Origin: an uncultured Gammaproteobacteria bacterium
GTDB taxonomy: Bacteria > Pseudomonadota > Gammaproteobacteria > HyVt-429
Length of the DNA stretch: 64,000 nucleotides
NCBI GenBank assembly: GCA_947259975.1
Contig: CAMYOD010000074.1
Span: 62,001 to 126,000 of the forward strand
Direction of reading: 5' to 3'
Part shown: piece after piece, positions 1 to 10,991 of the stretch
Layout: each line of letters starts with the position of its first letter
Numbering within the stretch: the stretch's first letter is position 1
The notes under the pieces: model-generated
Database searches by the model: none
The model's input: only the letters and a program-made list of their open reading frames with translations
What the model was told of the DNA's origin: nothing
Position numbers and translations under genes: made by a program

Positions 1-488
1 GGATCGAACACCATGTTGCCTTCGTCGTCCACCGCGACCTTGCTGAACAGGTTCAGATTGGCTGCCATATCGCGCTCGTTCATGCCATATTTCGCCAGCT
101 CGACCAGAAAGCTATCGTGTCCGTTGAGGTACCAGTCATTGCGGTGATCCTGGTAGTTTCGCTCACCCCATTTTTCATTCACAGACGCCGCGGTGGTATT
201 GCCACCCACCGTGTCATGCCAGCCAACCGTGTCCTCGATAATCGAGCAGAATATACGTCCCATATCCGAGTACAGGCAGTTGCCGCGGGTCAACTTGAAG
301 GTGTGCTGGCATTTTAGGGTGTCGGGCGCGTTATAGCGTTCGAGGTAATTCGATGGGTTATAGAACAGCATGCCAACATTGGCGCCGCCGTCCTTGTCGA
401 TCAGGTGCAGGGTCGTACCCTTGCGCATCAGCATCGACCAATGCTTGCCGCCCGGGATCTCATCCTGGTAGAAAACTTCGTTCGTCAC
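1..488 (-). CDS. Carboxyguanidine deiminase subunit (urea carboxylase-associated, DUF1989), 5' part
   Basis: Runs off the left edge; only the first 162 codons are visible. The start is GTG at 488, chosen because GAGGAG lies just upstream and no ATG fits. The protein opens VTNEVFYQDEIPGGKHWSML and contains GNCLYSDMGRIFCSI and GWHDTVGG, typical of the DUF1989 proteins annotated as urea carboxylase-associated protein 1 or 2. In published guanidine metabolism, a pair of these proteins forms a deiminase that converts carboxyguanidine to allophanate. It is the fourth gene of an operon with the transporter at 501-3238, 12 bp after the ATPase stop. Guanidine carboxylase and allophanate hydrolase genes are expected beyond the edge (inference). 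Which of the two subunits this is was not settled. Confidence 0.85.
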   Translation of the reverse strand, partial: MTNEVFYQDEIPGGKHWSMLMRKGTTLHLIDKDGGANVGMLFYNPSNYLERYNAPDTLKCQHTFKLTRGNCLYSDMGRIFCSIIEDTVGWHDTVGGNTTAASVNEKWGERNYQDHRNDWYLNGHDSFLVELAKYGMNERDMAANLNLFSKVAVDDEGNMVFD

Positions 489-500
489 TGTCGTGGCTCC

Positions 501-1286
501 TCATTCAATCAGTGCCCTGCGGCTTTCATCCAGGGATTCATTGATGTCTTCATAGGTATCGCCATTGGTCTTTCCCACCGGAATATCATAGGTGATAAAA
601 GCGCCGTAGGCGTTGGTATTATGCGGATCCAGCCTGATTTTATCGAACACCCAAAGACGGGTCCCGAGATAGAAACCTTCCTGCAGGTCATGGGTGATCA
701 TGAATACGGTCAGACCCGTCTTCTTCCATAAATCGAGGATCAGCTCATGCATATCCGCCCGGATTCCCGGATCGAGTGCGCCGAAGGGCTCGTCCAGTAG
801 CAGGATACGCGGGTTCTTCATCAGCGCCTGGGCAATCGCCAGACGCTGCTGCATGCCTCCCGACAGCTCATGCGGGTACCGGTCGAGCGCCTGGGTCAAG
901 CCGACAGACTCGAGTATGTGCCGGGCCCTGACTTCCGCCTCCCGGCGTTCGTCGCCAAACAGCCTGCCCAGTACCGGGGACTTGCCCAGCTCGGCGCCCA
1001 GCAGCGTATTCTTCAATACCGTCAAGTGGGGAAACACCGAGTATCTCTGGAACACGATGCCGCGTTCCTCACCCGGCTCGTTCGGAAACGGCTTGCCCTC
1101 GAGCAGTAATTCGCCGCGGCTCGGTTGCTCGACGCCGAGCAGCATGCGCAGGAAAGTGGTCTTGCCGCAGCCCGAGGTGCCGACGATGGTGATGAACTCG
1201 CCTTCTTCCACGCTTACATTGACCTGTTCCAGCACTACGTTGTCGCCGTATTCCTTCCACAGGTTCTTTGCTTCGATTATTGGCAT
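501..1286 (-). CDS. ABC transporter ATP-binding protein (guanidine/urea carboxylase-linked type)
   Basis: A 261-residue ATPase of the nitrate/sulfonate/taurine importer group (NrtD/SsuB/TauB-like). It has Walker A GTSGCGKTT near residue 37, the signature LSGGMQQRLA near 142 and Walker B LLLDEPFG near 160. An ORF extends further upstream, but MPIIEAKNLW at 1286 is the family-like start and follows the permease stop by two bases. It would energise import of the substrate captured by the protein at 2177-3238. Riboswitch control of the operon points to guanidine rather than urea (inference). Confidence 0.9.
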   Translation of the reverse strand: MPIIEAKNLWKEYGDNVVLEQVNVSVEEGEFITIVGTSGCGKTTFLRMLLGVEQPSRGELLLEGKPFPNEPGEERGIVFQRYSVFPHLTVLKNTLLGAELGKSPVLGRLFGDERREAEVRARHILESVGLTQALDRYPHELSGGMQQRLAIAQALMKNPRILLLDEPFGALDPGIRADMHELILDLWKKTGLTVFMITHDLQEGFYLGTRLWVFDKIRLDPHNTNAYGAFITYDIPVGKTNGDTYEDINESLDESRRALIE

Positions 1287-1288
1287 GG

Positions 1289-2107
1289 TTATTTGCTCGA
1301 CATATGGAACCACGGGAAGAACCGGGTAGAAACAAAGCGCAGCACATAGTCGGTCATGAACGCGAGAAACGTGATCCACACAACATACGGCAGGATGACG
1401 TCCATGGACAGATAGCGCCTTACCAGGAAGATGCGGTAGCCGAGCCCGTCGGTTGAAGCGATGGCCTCGGCGGCAATCAGGAACAACCACGCGGCGCCCA
1501 GGGAGAGGCGCAGGGCTTCGATCAGGCGTGGCAGGATCTGCGGCATAACCACGCGCAGGATGACCAGCCAGGTCGTGGCGCCCAGGGTCTGTGCCTTGAT
1601 CATTTGTTCGGCGGGCAGCTCCATGACCTTGCCCTGCAGGTCGCGAATAATGAACGGTGTGATACCAATAGCAATCAACACCACCTTTGAGAGTTCGCCC
1701 AGCCCGAGCACGATGAATAGTACCGGCAGCACAGCCAGTGGCGGAATCAATGATATCGCGGTGATTACCGGCGACAGGTTGGCGCGCACCAGCGGGATGA
1801 CTCCGTTGATGATCCCGAACAGCAGGCCGATGATGGCGGCGATGCCGAGCCCCAGGCCCAGGCGTCTCAGGCTCGACGCTGTATCATTCCATAATATGTA
1901 ATCCCCGGTGCGTTTGCTCGGTTCCGTGGCCAGCGTATCTACCGCGGTCGCCATGCTCTGTAGCGATGGCAGTAGTTTGTCCTGCGGGTTTTCCGCCAGA
2001 CGCGCATTCGAGGAGGTGATGTAGAGAATTAGCAGGAGAATGAAAGGAATCGCGCCCAGCACATACCTGGACACGTTCCCGGGGTGGCGATTCATCAGGC
2101 GTTTCAT
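1289..2107 (-). CDS. ABC transporter permease (guanidine/urea carboxylase-linked type)
   Basis: A 272-residue inner-membrane permease with about six hydrophobic segments. An EAA-like loop (AQTLGATTWLVILRVVMPQI) lies near residue 175, where it would contact the ATPase. It belongs to the SsuC/TauC/NrtB type of binding-protein-dependent transport component. It sits between the binding-protein and ATPase genes, 69 bp after the former and 2 bp before the latter, so the three are surely one transcription unit. Nothing in it defines the substrate; that comes from the riboswitch upstream and the deiminase gene downstream. Confidence 0.88.
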   Translation of the reverse strand: MKRLMNRHPGNVSRYVLGAIPFILLLILYITSSNARLAENPQDKLLPSLQSMATAVDTLATEPSKRTGDYILWNDTASSLRRLGLGLGIAAIIGLLFGIINGVIPLVRANLSPVITAISLIPPLAVLPVLFIVLGLGELSKVVLIAIGITPFIIRDLQGKVMELPAEQMIKAQTLGATTWLVILRVVMPQILPRLIEALRLSLGAAWLFLIAAEAIASTDGLGYRIFLVRRYLSMDVILPYVVWITFLAFMTDYVLRFVSTRFFPWFHMSSK

Positions 2108-2176
2108 GGCAACTTTCTCCTACACAGCAGACGAACAAAAGCGGGCCGGGTTCCCCCGGCCCGTTGTCACATTGCT

Positions 2177-3238
2177 TTATAGCTTGCCGTCCGCCGCCAT
2201 CTTCATGTAGGCGGGATTGAAACGGAACTTGATGTTGGCCTCGTCACCAAACACCCCGGCCGGCGTTTCGACGCCGATGAACCCGGCATCGGGTGCGCCC
2301 TCGCCCAGCAGGCCATGGGCGAAGGAGAACCCGGCCACCTTGGCCATGGTGTCTTTCAATGCCTCGCTGTTGGTGAACTCGACAGCGTCCGCAGCTTTAA
2401 AGAACATCTTGGTGGATGCCAGCTGCGCGTCATAGCCTTTCAGGTCGGTCCCGGATGCCTTACCCATGGCGGTGCGCGCCTCGACTGCTTTCTCGTCGGT
2501 ACCGGACATGGTCGCCATGATTTCGTACCAGGCGCCGGCCAGTGCCTTGCCCAGTTTCGGGTTCTCCGCGAGGGTCTTGGTGTTGACCACCATCAGGTCG
2601 ATGATTTCACCGGGGATCTGGCTGGAATCGAATACCTTGTAGCTATTGGGCATCGCCAGGATCTCACTCACCAGCGGATTCCAGGTGGTCACCGCGGTGA
2701 CATCGTCGGTGCCGTAGACCGCGACCATGTCGGCATCCGAAGTGTTCACTACACTGATGTCTTTTTCCGACATGCCGACGGTCTCAAGACCTCGCGCCAG
2801 CAGGTAATGGGATACGCTCAGTTCAACAAGGTTGACTTTCTGTCCCTTGATGTCCTTGAGTGCTTTCTTGCCTTTGAGAATGACCGCGTCGTTTCCGTTC
2901 GAGAAGTCACCGACGATCAGCGCGGTGCTGTCGACGCCGCTGGCCGCGGGGATGGTCAGTGCATCCATGTTGGTCATCACGCAACCATCAAACGCGCCGG
3001 CGGTGTATTGGTTAATGGATTCAACGTAGTCGTTGATCTGCACCACCTCGATATCGATGCCGTATTTATCAGCCCATTTCTTGACGATGCCTGAGTTATT
3101 CCCGTAGTCCCAGGGCATCCAGCCGACATAGATACTCCAGGCGATCCGAAATTTATCCTTCGCCAGGACCGGCTGCGCCACGGTCATGGACAATGCTAAC
3201 AACAGCAGTAGAAGCAGTTTTGTAGTCAGGTGTTTCAT
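2177..3238 (-). CDS. ABC transporter periplasmic substrate-binding protein (guanidine candidate)
   Basis: A 353-residue secreted protein with a Sec signal peptide ending near LSMTVAQPVLA (residues 17-27). It matches the binding proteins found beside urea carboxylase genes, which share the NrtA/TauA/SsuA periplasmic fold. The start ATG at 3238 follows GGAGGAAAC. It is the first gene of the operon, 57 bp after the guanidine-I riboswitch. Published work links operons with this riboswitch to guanidine uptake and breakdown, so guanidine is the best substrate guess. Urea or a related compound remains possible. Confidence 0.88.
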   Translation of the reverse strand: MKHLTTKLLLLLLLALSMTVAQPVLAKDKFRIAWSIYVGWMPWDYGNNSGIVKKWADKYGIDIEVVQINDYVESINQYTAGAFDGCVMTNMDALTIPAASGVDSTALIVGDFSNGNDAVILKGKKALKDIKGQKVNLVELSVSHYLLARGLETVGMSEKDISVVNTSDADMVAVYGTDDVTAVTTWNPLVSEILAMPNSYKVFDSSQIPGEIIDLMVVNTKTLAENPKLGKALAGAWYEIMATMSGTDEKAVEARTAMGKASGTDLKGYDAQLASTKMFFKAADAVEFTNSEALKDTMAKVAGFSFAHGLLGEGAPDAGFIGVETPAGVFGDEANIKFRFNPAYMKMAADGKL

Positions 3239-3294
3239 GTTTCCTCCGGCTAGTTACGCGTTGAGGTTGAGGAGGTTCAATGACATGCATTGCA

Positions 3295-3412
3295 TACCTC
3301 CCGGGCTTTTATCCCTCCGTGTAACCTGCGAGGAATCATGCAAATGCATGTTAGGCAGGTCGACTGCTCTCGGACCAGTCATCCAGTAATGGATCGGAAC
3401 CCTAGCGGTCTA
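3295..3412 (-). promoter_or_regulatory. Guanidine-I (ykkC type 1) riboswitch
   Basis: On the minus strand three conserved blocks occur in the order and spacing of this riboswitch: CTAGGGTTCCG (3405-3395), ACTGGTCCGAGAG (3379-3367) and GGGATAAAAGCCCGGGAG (3315-3298). Between the last two is a stem, AACCTGCGAGG-like against CCTGCCTAA-like sequence. The class binds guanidinium and turns genes on. Just after it, a hairpin at 3271-3301 pairs GGAGGT with ACCTCC and shares bases with the last conserved block, so it could be the switching element. No U-tract follows, so control at translation or by another route is possible. Confidence 0.93.
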
Positions 3413-3470
3413 TTTTTGGCTTGTCGCGGTATAGCGACATGTCACTGAACACTCAGCTGACAGGCAGGTT

Positions 3471-3486
3471 TGCAATTTCGATGCCA
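3471..3486 (-). promoter_or_regulatory. Sigma-54 promoter for the guanidine operon
   Basis: Minus strand TGGCATCGAAATTGCA matches the -24/-12 pattern TGGCAC-N5-TTGCA, with GG and GC exactly ten bases apart and a single change in the -24 block. Transcription would start near 3460, about 50 bases before the riboswitch. The NtrC-like site at 3570-3586 lies about 118 bases upstream, a usual enhancer distance. This is a pattern match, untested, but the coincidence of position and spacing is strong. Confidence 0.72.
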
Positions 3487-3569
3487 GCAACAAACTTGCG
3501 CAGAAACAAGCCATTAGATGTCTGACTGTGCCCGGTGCGAGGCAAGTATTTCCAAAATGGCGCACGCCA

Positions 3570-3586
3570 CGCACTATTTTGATGCA
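3570..3586. promoter_or_regulatory. NtrC-like enhancer site
   Basis: Plus strand CGCACTATTTTGATGCA agrees with TGCACCA-N3-TGGTGCA (read on the minus strand) at 11 of 14 specified positions. It lies upstream of the sigma-54 promoter at 3471-3486. NtrC would activate the operon when nitrogen is scarce, fitting a nitrogen-scavenging role. Confidence 0.55.
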
Positions 3587-3738: not shown

Positions 3739-4410
3739 TTAAGAACGGAACAGACGTGAATATTGCACTTCATGTAGCGCGCTGGCCATGGCCAGCGCCG
3801 GTGCAATCGCGCCGATCGCCGAATCTTCCAGCTCCAGACCACGCTCCATCATCTCCGGCAACTCCACAGTCACATCGCTCAATATCCTTTGTCCCGCGGT
3901 CTGACCCAGGGGCACCAGTTTGATTGCGGCGGCCACCTGGTTTTCTGCCCACGCCCATACATAACCGCTCACCGCATCCGCCAACGGAATTTGCCAATGC
4001 ACCGCGGCCATGGCGAACAGCGTGGCGAAACTGCGCGCCGGATGATCGACCCATGTACTGGCGCCGGGGACATCCAGTTCATCGAGCAACCTGGCGAGGG
4101 CCGCACCCAGATGGTGGTCTTCGGCCTGCAGCTCGGCAGTCTCGCGGCAGGCGCGCAACAATTCGCTCCAGGCGAGTACCGCGGCTTTATCATCTGCAGC
4201 GAACCCACGATAGATACGCGCAAATACCGGTACGTCCAGGTGACAGAGGGAGTGGTCCATCAGACCCAGAATCCAGTCGCGCGCGTCGGCCTCGTCACTG
4301 ACCCAACCCCGCTCCACCGCGGTTTCGAGTCCCTGGGAATAGGCATAGGCCCCCACCGGCAGGGCCGGGCTCACCAATTGCATCAGGCGCAGTGTGGTCT
4401 GGTTAGTCAT
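3739..4410 (-). CDS. ureF: Urease accessory protein UreF
   Basis: A 223-residue protein of the usual UreF length, with the family opening LRLMQLVSPALPVGAYAYSQ and GLETAVERGWV. UreF forms a complex with UreD and UreG that delivers nickel to the urease active site and gates UreG GTP hydrolysis. Its start overlaps the end of ureE by 8 bp, so the two are translationally coupled. The usual next gene, ureG, is absent; the following genes belong to the guanidine operon and have their own promoter. Confidence 0.95.
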   Translation of the reverse strand: MTNQTTLRLMQLVSPALPVGAYAYSQGLETAVERGWVSDEADARDWILGLMDHSLCHLDVPVFARIYRGFAADDKAAVLAWSELLRACRETAELQAEDHHLGAALARLLDELDVPGASTWVDHPARSFATLFAMAAVHWQIPLADAVSGYVWAWAENQVAAAIKLVPLGQTAGQRILSDVTVELPEMMERGLELEDSAIGAIAPALAMASALHEVQYSRLFRS

Positions 4411-4852
4411 GGTGACCGTGATGATGATGGCCGCTGTGATAGGCCCCGGCCTCGGGTTCGAAGGTTGCCTGTTCGGTGACGACTTTAAGCCCCAGCTTGA
4501 TCACCATGTCATCCAGCACATGATCATGCGCGTAACGTACCCAGCCGGTACCAACCTGCAGCGGTACATGCCGGTTGCCCAGATGATAACTGGCGCGTGC
4601 CAATTGCACGGGGTTGTCACTGTAGGCGGTGGATACGGTCTCGGCGGCGGCGTGCACCTCGACCACCATGCCGTTCTCGGCCCGTAATCGGTCACCATGT
4701 CTCAGCACACTGCCCCGGGGCAGCATCAATCCCACCGCCATGCCGTCCTCCAGGCGGGTGGCGAGTCGACTCTTCTGCCGCTCCTCGAAACGCAGGGTCA
4801 GGACTGCGCCGGGCGTCGGGTCGCTATTCGTAATTTCAGTGATTTTTAGCAT
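4403..4852 (-). CDS. ureE: Urease nickel metallochaperone UreE
   Basis: A 149-residue nickel-binding chaperone that hands Ni(II) to the UreDFG complex. The C-terminus is histidine-rich (HSGHHHHGHHD), as in Klebsiella-type UreE, and would bind extra nickel. The conserved histidine of the metal site lies in the YHLGNRHVPLQV segment near residue 95. It overlaps ureF by 8 bp. A 137-bp inverted-repeat element starts 7 bp upstream of its start codon, so its own leader sequence is mostly that element. Confidence 0.95.
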   Translation of the reverse strand: MLKITEITNSDPTPGAVLTLRFEERQKSRLATRLEDGMAVGLMLPRGSVLRHGDRLRAENGMVVEVHAAAETVSTAYSDNPVQLARASYHLGNRHVPLQVGTGWVRYAHDHVLDDMVIKLGLKVVTEQATFEPEAGAYHSGHHHHGHHD

Positions 4853-4859
4853 TGGAAAA

Positions 4860-4996
4860 GGGGTCGGAGTGATTTATTTTTAGGCAGTTGAGTCGGGATG
4901 CAACTTCCGCAGACAAACGTTTTCGATTGCGCTGAATGAATTTGCGTTCGAGTTTTTGGTGGTAACAACTGCCTTAAAATAAATCACTCCGACCCC
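4860..4996. mobile_element. MITE-like element with 30-bp terminal inverted repeats
   Basis: The two ends (4860-4889 and 4967-4996) are inverted copies matching at 29 of 30 positions. Each begins GGGGTCGGAGTGATTTATTT at the outer edge. The interior (about 77 bp) has no coding capacity. It sits between ureC and ureE inside the urease operon, where the gap would otherwise be very short. A lone copy of the same end is at 18965-18990 and a worn one at 14384-14405. No clear target-site duplication is visible. The shared GGGGTCRGAG edge links it to the REP-like sequences beside the transposase relic near 18.9 kb (inference). Confidence 0.8.
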
Positions 4997-4998
4997 TT

Positions 4999-6698
<1,700 letters not shown>

Positions 6699-6702
<4 letters not shown>

Positions 6703-7016
6703 GCGCCTTCCTCCAGCTTACCCATCACCTTGGCGTTGAAACCGTACACTGTGCGCGCCCCGGCGTAGGCGACGAGTTCCACTTCCCGTTGCTGCCCCGG
6801 CTCGAAGCGCACCGCAGTGCCGGCCGGGATGTTCAGCCGGAAGCCCCGCGCCGCCTCGCGATCGAATGCCAACGCGGAATTGGTTTCATAAAAATGATAA
6901 TGCGAGCCGACCTGGATCGGCCGGTCGCCGGTGTTGGCGACGGTCACGGTGATGGTTTCGCGCCCGGTGTTGAGTTCGAGTTCACCGGCGGCGGTCACTA
7001 TTTCTCCGGGGATCAT
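6699..7016 (-). CDS. ureB: Urease subunit beta
   Basis: A 105-residue structural subunit of normal length, beginning [20 protein letters not shown] and containing the conserved [17 protein letters not shown] segment. With UreA and UreC it forms the (ABC)3 urease trimer. It overlaps ureC by an ATGA and lies 10 bp after ureA, in the standard A-B-C order. Confidence 0.97.
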
Positions 7017-7026
7017 GTCGGTCTCC

Positions 7027-7329
7027 TCAGGTAATCGGGTTATGCACCGTGACCAGCTTGGTGCCGTCGGGAAAGGTGGCCTCGACCTGGACCTCGGGAA
7101 TCATTTCCGGGATACCGTCCATGACGTCGTCGCGGGCAAGCAGGGTGGTACCGTAGGCCATCAGGTCGGCCACGGTGCGGCCCTCGCGCGCACCCTCCAT
7201 GATGGCCGCGCTGATGAAGGCCATCGCCTCCGGGTAATTCAGCCTCAGACCTTTGGCTTTGCGCCGTTCCGCCAGCAGGGCGGCGGTGAAAATCAGCAGT
7301 TTATCTTTCTCCCGGGGGGATAATTCCAT
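7027..7329 (-). CDS. ureA: Urease subunit gamma
   Basis: A 100-residue urease gamma subunit. A longer frame runs upstream to 7416, but [20 protein letters not shown] at 7329 is the family's invariant start. The conserved [20 protein letters not shown] and LVTVHNPI segments are present. It is separated from ureD by 168 bp, which contains a few CAAGAT-type bases like the heptad arrays elsewhere; a separate promoter could lie there, though none was clear. Confidence 0.96.
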
Positions 7330-7497
7330 ACCGACATCCTCGATAAAAGGGGCAGACGTATTTTGTGATCCCGATATCGTCTCGTTAAATAAATAATCAA
7401 AGAGAAAACCAGCCACAACTCCTGGTCAATGCATATTTCAGCATCGTCCTTCCAGAATTGTCGCTTTGCACTTTCATCTTGTATCTTTTCTCCGCTT

Positions 7498-8343
7498 TTA
7501 TGTAAACCAGATACGGGGCGCGCAGGCCGGTCGTTGCACAATCATGGGGCGCAGGATTTCCCACGCACGGCTCAGTCGATGTCGCGCATGTGCGGCGTGT
7601 AGACCCAGGTAGCGACAGACGACAACGTCATCGAGTTGGGTTACCGAGCAATACTCCTGTGCATCCTGGGTCTGCACGGCGTCTCGCACCTGGGACGCGA
7701 GGCCGGGGTCCCGGCCAGTGGCGATCAGGCTGGCGGTGACCGGGAAACCGCGCAGGCCCCAGGGCGACGTGAGCAGCGGGCCACCGCCGTCGATCGATAT
7801 ACGTTCCAGCAACAGCGGCTTGTTCTCGCGCCAGATCTCGAATCGCTGCCGAACATTGCCGTGATCGAATCCCTCACCGGCGGCACTGCGGCCGAGACAC
7901 AGAATTTCCCAGCCAAGAAATTCGGCGTCGCCGGTCAGATCCACTCGGGTCAGCAGGTCCGCTTTGGCACCCGCGAACACTATGGTTTCCTGGGGTAGCC
8001 ATTCCAGACGGGCGTTGGGTTGCACGCACAGGTTCACAACCTGGTGCGCAGTCGCGCCGCTGCTGCGATAAAACTTGCCGGCCGCCGGGGTGGTCAATAA
8101 AGCGTGCGCACCGGTCTGCGCGCGCGCCGAAATATGCAAGGTATCGCCGCCGACCACACCACCGGGCGGATGCAACACATACGCATGGCATACGCCTGGA
8201 CCTTCCGGGTAGAACGGCCGTTGTATGCGCAGCGGGCCCAGATGACGCCGGTCGGCCAGCACTGTGCGCCCGTCCCGGTGATGGAACCCTAATTCGAGTT
8301 CACCGCGCCAGCAGTCGGTGTCGGTTTCGGATAATTCAGGCAT
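7498..8343 (-). CDS. ureD: Urease accessory protein UreD
   Basis: A 281-residue urease assembly scaffold, of normal length, that binds apo-urease and recruits UreF and UreG. It contains the family segments GPLRIQRPFYPEG, HPPGGVVGGDTL, TTPAAGKFYRS and EWLPQETIVFAGA. It is the first gene of the urease cluster, and 120 bp without a gene separate it from the membrane protein upstream. No nickel or nitrogen regulatory site was recognised in its leader. Confidence 0.95.
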   Translation of the reverse strand: MPELSETDTDCWRGELELGFHHRDGRTVLADRRHLGPLRIQRPFYPEGPGVCHAYVLHPPGGVVGGDTLHISARAQTGAHALLTTPAAGKFYRSSGATAHQVVNLCVQPNARLEWLPQETIVFAGAKADLLTRVDLTGDAEFLGWEILCLGRSAAGEGFDHGNVRQRFEIWRENKPLLLERISIDGGGPLLTSPWGLRGFPVTASLIATGRDPGLASQVRDAVQTQDAQEYCSVTQLDDVVVCRYLGLHAAHARHRLSRAWEILRPMIVQRPACAPRIWFT

Positions 8344-8463
8344 GAGTCGTTCGCGCGGGAAACTCTTACGCGATCGCAGCGCCGCGCGGGAAAGTCTCCG
8401 TTGTCACAGGTTGCGAATAATACGCCCGAAACGACCGGTACGACAAAGAGCGCAGCCGGAGCA

Positions 8464-10170
8464 TTATGCAATTCCGCTTTTGCGGAAATCGCGCGCGCTT
8501 TGCCAGGCCGCGGTCAGGCTGACGATGATGAAGGCGAGGATCAGCGGGTAGGCCGTGTGCATGGCGCGGTCGACCTGGGGATAGGCGGTCAGCTGCACCA
8601 GGGTCAATATGAGACAGACGCTCAGCACCGCGCCGAGCAAGGCGCCGGCGAAGGTGGTCATCAGACTCAGTCGGCGTGACTTCAAATCGAGCATCAACGC
8701 GATTAACAATGCGATCAGCGCCAGGCCAAACAGCCAGATGCCGGGGTATTGATAGACCCCGCGTGCAATGCGCCACAGCAGTTGGCCCTTGGCCTGTTCA
8801 CGTTCGATCTGCGCCGGCGGCTTTTCCGCGTCCCGCTCCGGTTTCGAGGTGCGCAGCGGTTCACGGGTAACGTCTTCAAACAACGCCATCGCCTCGGCCG
8901 GTCCCCAGCTGTATCTACCGTCGAGCTGGGTGCCGAGAAAATCGTCGAACCTCACCATGCGCTTCAGTGTAGCCCAGTAGGTCGGCAACAGTGCGCGCGT
9001 GTATTCATCCCGCCACTGGGACATGAATTCCGACAGCAACGGCGCGCAATCCAGACGTCCGTCGTCACAGGCGGCGGCCAATTCATCGCCCATGCGGCGA
9101 TAGAAATCCAGCGTCGTGGCGGCATCCGAACCCTGGTAATAACCCGCCCAATCCACCGCGTCACGGAATATCCAGATAAACGCGTAGGCGGGCAGGTCGA
9201 CGCCGTGCCGCCCCTGCCACTGTGCGGCCTTGGGGCCTTCTATATAGTCGCGCAGTTCACGGAACGCGGGACTGACGTCGTAGGCTTTGTGCCGCGCCTC
9301 CTTCGTCACCGGCACATGTTTGTGCCAGCTGTCGCTGCGGATACGCAGCAGGCCGCTGTAGGCGGCCTTGAATTCACTGGATTTGATCTCCAGCGGCGTG
9401 AAGATGCCGTAATGCGACCAGTTCAGCGTCGCCAGACTCAGCGTGGCCGCCAGCCAGATGCCCAATGGTACCGCCAGCAGACCCGCGAAGCGTTTTGCGC
9501 CCGCTACCGTCCAGGGGAGATGGGCGAGCAGTGCATAGCCGAGCAACAGCGCCAGCGACGGCAGGATCCAGATGGACTCTTCGCGGGTATGCCACAGCGC
9601 CGCGAATGCCAGGCCCAGGCCGATCCCCCAGAGCAACGGTTTGCCGCCGGTCATAACGCTGCGGGTGTAGAAACCGTAGGCGCAGGCGAACACCAGTAAC
9701 CCCAACGCGGGATAGATGCTCAGACGGAACACACGACTGACGCTCAGGTAATCATAGGTCAGTGGATTGAACAACAGGAATGCAAAAATAAAGAACAGCC
9801 ACCACAGGTTTTTGATGGTCGGACGCAGTGCGAGCACAAAGACCACGCAGGCCAGCGCATAGAGCAGGCGCTCACCGGTGAGCAGGGGAATCGACAAGGT
9901 GTTACACAACGCGATCCACAACGGATAGAACAGTCCTTTCATCAACGTATATTGGGAGTAGGGACCGAGCCACTCACCGTTGACGATGTGGTACGCCAGC
10001 TTGACGAAGTGATGGTCATCATGCGGCGCGTAATAGGCGCGCAGCAGCTGATAATCCATCAACCAGAGCTTGACGAGAACCAGTAGCGCCACGCCGAGAC
10101 CGAAGATGAGCCAACGGTGTTTCGAGGCGTAGGCCAAAGCGGCTGCAAGATTTCGTTTCACATCGCTCAT
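8464..10170 (-). CDS. Polytopic membrane protein of a surface-glycan operon
   Basis: A 568-residue protein with about ten hydrophobic helices and a large soluble region near residues 255-420 that carries many acidic and aromatic residues. An early HDDHHFVKLAYHI stretch follows the first helix, as in GT-C glycosyltransferases and related polyprenyl-sugar enzymes, where acidic residues sit in the first periplasmic loop. I do not recognise a named family. It overlaps the deacetylase by 4 bp and ends a three-gene operon (GT2, deacetylase, this), which suggests glycan transfer or export at the inner membrane (inference). Confidence 0.75.
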   Translation of the reverse strand: MSDVKRNLAAALAYASKHRWLIFGLGVALLVLVKLWLMDYQLLRAYYAPHDDHHFVKLAYHIVNGEWLGPYSQYTLMKGLFYPLWIALCNTLSIPLLTGERLLYALACVVFVLALRPTIKNLWWLFFIFAFLLFNPLTYDYLSVSRVFRLSIYPALGLLVFACAYGFYTRSVMTGGKPLLWGIGLGLAFAALWHTREESIWILPSLALLLGYALLAHLPWTVAGAKRFAGLLAVPLGIWLAATLSLATLNWSHYGIFTPLEIKSSEFKAAYSGLLRIRSDSWHKHVPVTKEARHKAYDVSPAFRELRDYIEGPKAAQWQGRHGVDLPAYAFIWIFRDAVDWAGYYQGSDAATTLDFYRRMGDELAAACDDGRLDCAPLLSEFMSQWRDEYTRALLPTYWATLKRMVRFDDFLGTQLDGRYSWGPAEAMALFEDVTREPLRTSKPERDAEKPPAQIEREQAKGQLLWRIARGVYQYPGIWLFGLALIALLIALMLDLKSRRLSLMTTFAGALLGAVLSVCLILTLVQLTAYPQVDRAMHTAYPLILAFIIVSLTAAWQSARDFRKSGIA

Positions 10171-10991
10171 GCTGCCGCCGAAAGCTCGCGCACGTATTCA
10201 CTGTAAGTCATCGCCTTATGACCATGCCGCAGTGCCTGTAGCCGCGGCAGCACCTTGTTGCGATTGATGTACATCAGTCGATTAAGCCAGCGATTATCGT
10301 TGAGATCGGGGTGCATGAAGCGTTCCTGCGCTTCATCCAGATCGTAGGGGTGCAGGTAGGTCAGCAAGGGGCGATTTTGTCGCGCGCGCACGGCGACGCC
10401 CAGACGAATCAAAAACCAGGGCAGCACGCGAAAATACACGCCGCCTGCCAGCGGCACCCGCAGCCCCGGCCAGGGGTGCAGGGTAATGGGCAGTTCCCAG
10501 ACGGCGCCCGCCATGCGTCGCGGTTGCTCGCCGAAACCCGGCCAACCGTACAGCGGGTTGCCCGCCGGCAGCACCGAGCTGGAATACTCGAACCCCAGTT
10601 CCGCCAGCGTCGTGTACATCCACTCGCTGGCGGCGGTAAGAGAGAAGGTCGGCGCGCGGTAGCCGGTCACCCGGTCGATGCCGGCGCGATCCAGGGCATC
10701 GAGGTTGCGACGCAGGTCCTCGGCGCATTGCGCCGGCGTCTGTTTGTTGAGCTGAATATGGCGATCGCTATGACAAGCGATCTCATGACCGGCGGCCGCG
10801 ATCTCGCGCAGCAGTTCCGGATAGCGGCGCGCCACGTCGCCCACCACAAAAAACGTCGCGCGCACATCGTTCTCGGCGAACCACGCCAGATAGCGAGCGG
10901 TGTTGGCGGGCACCCGTTCCGGTCTGGCATGGCCGTCCGCGATCTGGTCACGCACGTCCTCCAGATCGATGCTGAGTAGCAACTGGGTCAT
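10167..10991 (-). CDS. Polysaccharide deacetylase family protein
   Basis: A 274-residue NodB-fold (carbohydrate esterase 4) protein. Metal and catalytic motifs are visible: SIDLEDV near the start, where the second Asp would be the catalytic base region, and the HSDRHIQLN histidine motif near residue 92. GYRAPTFS near 137 and a late TYLHPYDLD complete the pattern. It resembles the deacetylases of exopolysaccharide clusters with a C-terminal DUF3473-like region. The gene lies 19 bp after the GT2 gene and overlaps the membrane-protein gene, so all three are co-transcribed. Likely role: N-deacetylation of a lipid-linked or secreted glycan. Confidence 0.88.
   Translation of the reverse strand: MTQLLLSIDLEDVRDQIADGHARPERVPANTARYLAWFAENDVRATFFVVGDVARRYPELLREIAAAGHEIACHSDRHIQLNKQTPAQCAEDLRRNLDALDRAGIDRVTGYRAPTFSLTAASEWMYTTLAELGFEYSSSVLPAGNPLYGWPGFGEQPRRMAGAVWELPITLHPWPGLRVPLAGGVYFRVLPWFLIRLGVAVRARQNRPLLTYLHPYDLDEAQERFMHPDLNDNRWLNRLMYINRNKVLPRLQALRHGHKAMTYSEYVRELSAAA

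Follow-up and report, generated by a model that had tools for sequence, protein, structure and literature searches.

A probable guanidine nitrogen-scavenging operon nested in a gammaproteobacterial urease island

In the genome of an uncultured gammaproteobacterium, a group of genes carrying the database names of a urea transporter and a urea carboxylase is headed by a guanidine riboswitch and lies in the middle of a urease cluster. The locus raises the question of which of the two compounds these genes serve, and under which control. We consider it highly probable that they serve to scavenge nitrogen from guanidine, as an operon of the guanidine-carboxylase type that has its place between the ureF and ureG genes of a urease/urea-uptake island. 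The pathway and the operon type are already published, and the main yield of the core finding is a further genome in which a urea label from the databases should read guanidine; it is the placement and the regulatory features that set this locus apart.

The window, that is, the whole stretch of 64,000 nucleotides analyzed, corresponds to G000:C74:62001-126000. The DNA to its left was taken from L004 (C74:48001-65600), where a position equals the window position plus 14000. The source assembly is MAG-like, with 78 contigs and a completeness of 92.8%, and the contig carrying the locus has 203 kb. The features are the following:

Window 4403..8343, minus strand: ureD-ureA-ureB-ureC-ureE, upstream portion of the interrupted urease cluster
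Window 3739..4410, minus strand: ureF (PF01730), final urease gene ahead of the guanidine cassette
Window 3570..3586, minus strand: NtrC-like candidate enhancer site TGCATCAAAATAGTGCG, 9/12 informative positions
Window 3471..3486, minus strand: predicted sigma-54 (-24/-12) promoter TGGCATCGAAATTGCA, 11/12
Window 3296..3416, minus strand: guanidine-I aptamer (RF00442), full-length
Window 3240..3303, minus strand: probable expression platform, read from the sequence (hairpin, aptamer-complementary segment, Shine-Dalgarno)
Window 2177..3238, minus strand: periplasmic substrate-binding protein, annotated 'urea ABC transporter' (TIGR03427)
Window 1289..2107, minus strand: ABC permease of the TauC/SsuC/NrtB type, by family match
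Window 501..1286, minus strand: ABC ATPase of the nitrate/taurine type, by family match
Window 1..488, minus strand (whole gene L004 14488-13763): cgdA, carboxyguanidine deiminase subunit (DUF1989, UAAP1; TIGR03425, PF09347)
L004 13761-13114, minus strand: cgdB (TIGR03424)
L004 13079-13036, minus strand: guanidine-II aptamer (RF01068)
L004 13014-9409, minus strand: biotin carboxylase gene (gca), 1201 residues (TIGR02712)
L004 9412-7607, minus strand: allophanate hydrolase gene atzF (TIGR02713, PF01425, PF21986)
L004 7049-6417 (C74:54420-55049), minus strand: ureG, 3' of atzF
L004 6043-5291, minus strand: Gcw_chp porin, after ureG and followed by urtA, urtB, urtC and urtD

The left window edge splits cgdA, with codons 1-162 of 241 inside and the remainder at L004 13763-14000. 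A preliminary description of this DNA had predicted the carboxylase and the allophanate hydrolase to the left of base 1, and both were found in L004. The order cgdA-cgdB-gca-atzF is contiguous, without extra genes, and the 557 bp interval between atzF and ureG holds no identified gene. The assignment of ureD (window 7498-8343) relies on its position and on tblastn matches of 40-54% within relatives' urease clusters.

Position within the urease cluster

The guanidine cassette interrupts the urease genes after ureF, leaving ureG 10.7 kb away, beyond atzF. In the sample of relatives, both genes occur in 28 further genomes and are neighbours in every one. In one of the relatives, G046, the series ureDABCEF-ureG-porin-urtABCD is uninterrupted and the guanidine operon is found on another contig. 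The displaced ureG is the only one found in the assembly. The preliminary description went as far as the riboswitch, the importer and the pathway; what the present analysis adds is that the urease cluster is interrupted, that a sigma-54 promoter motif lies upstream and that there is a second riboswitch.

Since the assembly is MAG-like and fragmented, and the nesting was seen in no other sampled genome, the placement could be an assembly error that joined an ordinary, stand-alone operon to urease genes. We judge this very unlikely, given that the contig is long and its base composition shows no break, that both flanks keep the typical gene order seen uninterrupted in G046, and that guanidine genes are physically linked to urease genes also in G029, G058, G039, G060, G196 and G310. 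A horizontal insertion of foreign base composition was also considered and rejected, as the cassette does not clearly differ from its flanks. Comparison of the flanking gaps with the uninterrupted G046 site gave no alignable intergenic sequence. Thus, with a cassette of undistinguished composition and gaps that do not align, no insertion scar can be read.

Within ureC, on the opposite strand, lies a match to the Rfam family 5_ureB_sRNA (RF02514, 117.2 bits; window 6267-6553, plus strand). The match recurs inside ureC of L107, L108, L111, L147, L149 and L177, so it probably reflects antisense coding conservation and not a genuine small RNA, and it was set aside.

The linkage in relatives takes several forms. 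The G029 genome has the order guanidine-I, cgdA, cgdB, gca, atzF, ureD, ureA, a 415-residue ORF, urtABCD, ureB, ureC, ureE, ureF and ureG, with all genes after the riboswitch on one strand and with atzF and ureD overlapping in the sequence TGATG. A sigma-54 promoter, guanidine-I, cgdAB-gca-atzF, the TGATG passage into ureD, urtABCD and the remaining urease genes are likewise read along L108 3668-19900 and L109 1-1804. In G058 the guanidine-I aptamer is followed by a guanidinase, a NicO-type membrane protein and ureDABCEFG, the first three genes being spaced by 2 and 0 bases; in G039 the guanidinase and ureD are visible before the contig stops within ureD. Locus L177 (7155-1, minus strand, and 7546-10437, plus strand) has two divergent guanidine-I riboswitches, each with a sigma-54 promoter, one ahead of guanidinase-NicO-ureDABCEFG and the other ahead of a guanidine ABC importer. 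In the congeners G060 and G196, ureG is succeeded by the guanidine operon in the same orientation; in G310 the operon stands 5 kb ahead of ureD. Judged from gene order alone, G029 and G058 look like exceptions.

The carboxylase gene and ureC lie at most 25 kb apart in five of the 22 sampled genomes of the class that have both. With our own genome excluded the count is 4/21 (P = 4e-4, or 0.004 with congeners counted once). A wider sample of the phylum showed almost no guanidine-urease linkage, by which a general rule of clustering is rejected and the clustering is restricted to certain lineages. Among carboxylase loci of named genomes, none had a urease gene in the flanks covered (0/80).

Riboswitches, enzymes and importer

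The preliminary description had placed a guanidine-I riboswitch at 3295-3412, followed by an ABC transporter and a DUF1989 protein, and had argued for a guanidine rather than a urea pathway. The Rfam covariance model confirms the riboswitch at 3416-3296 of the minus strand, with model positions 1-107 complete, E = 1.1e-14 and 89.2 bits over a gathering score of 63, a score that rules out a chance match; the genes after it proved to be the TIGR03427 protein, permease, ATPase and the TIGR03425 (UAAP1) protein. The aptamer would bind guanidinium, judging by its sequence. The guanidine-II match, 22 nt ahead of the carboxylase start, is barely above its cut-off (32.3 bits versus 32) and has two ACGA loops in its sequence. 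A guanidine-II aptamer precedes the carboxylase also in relatives L112, L115, L150-L152, L154, L024 and L031.

The carboxylase scores 1869.9 bits with TIGR02712, named 'urea carboxylase'. It belongs to the same family, and has the same domain order, as the ATP-dependent urea amidolyase of K. lactis (PDB 3va7, 5i8i), which served as reference. Guanidine carboxylases are recognized by two Asp residues, in the places of residues 1330 and 1584 of the K. lactis enzyme (PMC11410670). Aligned with the reference, D953 matches D1584, whereas D704 occupies the place of N1330, so that the Asn expected of a urea carboxylase is an Asp here. Among the carboxylases of relatives, Asp is found at the 1330 site in 91 of 94 and at the 1584 site in all 94. 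These residues suggest that the enzyme would prefer guanidine over urea. A carboxylase with the urea-type Asn at 1330 is encoded at L148 1422-5012 (minus strand), which equals L018 10001-13591 (plus strand); it sits behind a guanidine-I riboswitch and cgdAB, and the same-genus G060 (L107) has Asp. Between them, the two enzymes form a natural experiment on the specificity residue.

The other pathway members also match their families. CgdA and CgdB form an adjacent DUF1989 pair (TIGR03425, UAAP1, 326 bits; TIGR03424, UAAP2, 340 bits), both above the cut-off. AtzF joins the amidase domain PF01425 to AH_C (PF21986) and reaches 773.5 bits with TIGR02713. The complete set TIGR03427, TIGR03425, TIGR03424, TIGR02712 and TIGR02713 is above curated cut-offs.

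For the ligand of the importer the argument is indirect. The binding protein (3238-2177) scores 559.6 bits with TIGR03427 over a cut-off of 333.9, and the permease has partner genes in relatives that are 60-77% identical. Modelled with AlphaFold (pLDDT 89.8), the binding protein has TauA and SsuA as its nearest solved folds, at 14-17% identity. TauA and SsuA bind sulfonates, and a predicted fold of this type does not settle the ligand. Against guanidine import, none of the sequence features tested proves guanidine over urea as the ligand of the binding protein. In G058 and G039 the same importer type, with a binding protein 66-67% identical, is encoded divergently from a gene of the arginase family, and each of the two sides has a guanidine-I aptamer. 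The G058 arginase-family protein is closest to the solved structures 7esr/7oi1 (E = 2.7e-171) and 9fek (E = 1.3e-163), named 'agmatinase 2' in the PDB, which we take to be the guanidinases of Synechocystis and Nitrospira. That one type of importer accompanies now one, now the other of two unrelated enzymes, both of which degrade guanidine, is most simply explained by guanidine import, and this shared company, a clean comparative argument, supports guanidine as the predicted ligand. Moreover, a separate urea transporter, UrtABCD, is encoded nearby, so that urea uptake does not require the TIGR03427 importer. A search of viral contigs for relatives of the binding protein found none. In nine loci (L007, L008, L011, L012, L014, L015, L058, L063 and L082) a different, distant importer, with a binding protein 29-35% identical, stands ahead of cgdAB-gca-atzF and replaces the close TIGR03427 type.

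Published operons provide the frame for these assignments. That of Vreelandella boliviensis (PMC12508155) combines guanidine-I, importer, cgdA/B, gca, atzF and an internal guanidine-II, and thus has the core gene content and dual riboswitch of our locus; it differs in carrying mgdH and mgdL between gca and atzF and in not being inside a urease cluster. In Raoultella, Erwinia and Klebsiella, guanidine-I precedes importer and deiminase, and guanidine-II precedes carboxylase and allophanate hydrolase (PMC12186494), which is the division of riboswitches seen here; the nesting between ureF and ureG is a feature of our locus and not of theirs. The guanidinase (GdmH) operons of Synechocystis and Nitrospira inopinata share the guanidine-I control of import and breakdown (PMC12186494, PMC11410670), but their chemistry differs, GdmH being a Ni hydrolase that yields urea; in relatives G058 and G039 the guanidinase is joined to urease.

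As the V. boliviensis operon uses mgdH and mgdL for methylguanidine (PMC12508155), a substituted guanidine of this kind might be the main substrate of importer and enzymes, with guanidine acting as inducer. This is very unlikely for a cassette where cgdA, cgdB, gca and atzF are consecutive and no mgdH- or mgdL-like gene occurs. Least probable of all, and hardly tenable, is an ATP-urea amidolyase system that takes up urea through a dedicated ABC transporter, the reading suggested by the database names (TIGR02712, 'urea carboxylase'; TIGR03427, 'putative urea ABC transporter') and by the surroundings of urease and urea uptake, in view of the Asp at 1330, the two guanidine riboswitches, the presence of CgdAB, a urease and UrtABCD that already serve urea, and the same importer next to the guanidinase in G058 and G039. 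The case for guanidine made in the preliminary description is supported by the riboswitch score, the carboxylase and allophanate hydrolase genes beyond base 1, D704 and D953, the separate UrtABCD, and the importer beside a guanidinase.

Leader, promoter and nitrogen control

The leader platform (3240..3303, minus strand) contains a hairpin GGGAGGU/ACCUCC, a segment GCGUAAC and the Shine-Dalgarno GGAGGAA. The GCGUAAC segment is complementary to GGTTACACGG / GGUUACACGG of the aptamer. Complementarity to the aptamer just 5' of the Shine-Dalgarno recurs over 30 leaders, with a mean of 6.5 pairs versus 4.6 in shuffled sequences. No terminator-like site was found in the guanidine-I leader which, together with the complementary segment ahead of the Shine-Dalgarno, points to translational control. 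The folding energies of free and bound leader give no clear difference in Shine-Dalgarno exposure. Around the cassette, terminator scans returned a single weak hairpin-T site, some 45 nt ahead of ureG and on a par with what shuffled sequences yield, and scans for sigma-70 promoters, including the region ahead of the riboswitch, returned no match.

The sequence TGGCATCGAAATTGCA (3486-3471) fits a sigma-54 promoter (GG-N10-GC) and ends about 54 nt before the aptamer; only two sites of such quality occur across the whole window. In a survey of 30 distinct guanidine-I leaders, our own included, where 200 nt upstream were scanned, a site of at least 11/12 was present in 26 (0.07 expected by shuffling) and one of at least 10/12 in all 30 (0.33 expected). 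The leaders of G058, G039, G029, G094 and G046 agree on the sigma-54 promoter. The NtrC-like site (3586-3570) lies 100 nt upstream of the promoter and, with p 0.13, is weak alone; over 31 leaders, the best NtrC-like palindrome averages 9.2/12 versus 7.5 in shuffled sequences, and most of these sites lie 79-131 nt upstream of the sigma-54 promoter. Genes for RpoN and for an NtrC above its curated cut-off are present in the genome. These motifs suggest that the operon may use sigma-54 and NtrC. No exporter-type guanidine-I riboswitch was identified among the relatives. The sigma-54/NtrC-type promoter seen here is absent from the review on the Raoultella, Erwinia and Klebsiella operons (PMC12186494), and a literature search lying mostly outside subscription journals found no paper linking guanidine riboswitches to RpoN or NtrC. 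Another sigma-54-like sequence, TGGTATGGGCCTTGCA (L004 6176-6161, minus strand), lies between ureG and porin-urtABCD; its place suggests that urea uptake is under the same nitrogen control.

We propose the following model for the locus. Upon nitrogen shortage, phosphorylated NtrC and sigma-54 RNA polymerase would transcribe the leader. Guanidine bound to the guanidine-I aptamer would then free the Shine-Dalgarno of the binding-protein gene, giving rise to importer and CgdAB, and the guanidine-II aptamer would gate carboxylase and allophanate hydrolase likewise. Imported guanidine would be carboxylated at the expense of ATP and with biotin, the carboxylated product would be deiminated to allophanate by CgdAB, and AtzF would hydrolyze allophanate to ammonia and CO2. 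Urea would be handled separately by urease and UrtABCD. As the only ureG found lies downstream of atzF, urease maturation may be partly coupled to the guanidine transcript, although this coupling is speculative. Equally speculative is that, in the carboxylase version of the pathway, urease would recover urea leaking from allophanate. A wider reading, that several gammaproteobacteria include urease in their guanidine response (as single units in G058, in G039 as far as its contig extends, and in G029, and with ureG behind the cassette here) under an NtrC/sigma-54 AND gate, is possible but somewhat short of probable.

The sigma-54 promoters ahead of 26 of the 30 related guanidine-I leaders suggest a gate that combines nitrogen shortage and guanidine, and the operon appears to require both together for its expression. 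The conserved sigma-54/NtrC-type promoter suggests that the guanidine riboswitches of import operons would be the second half of an AND gate.
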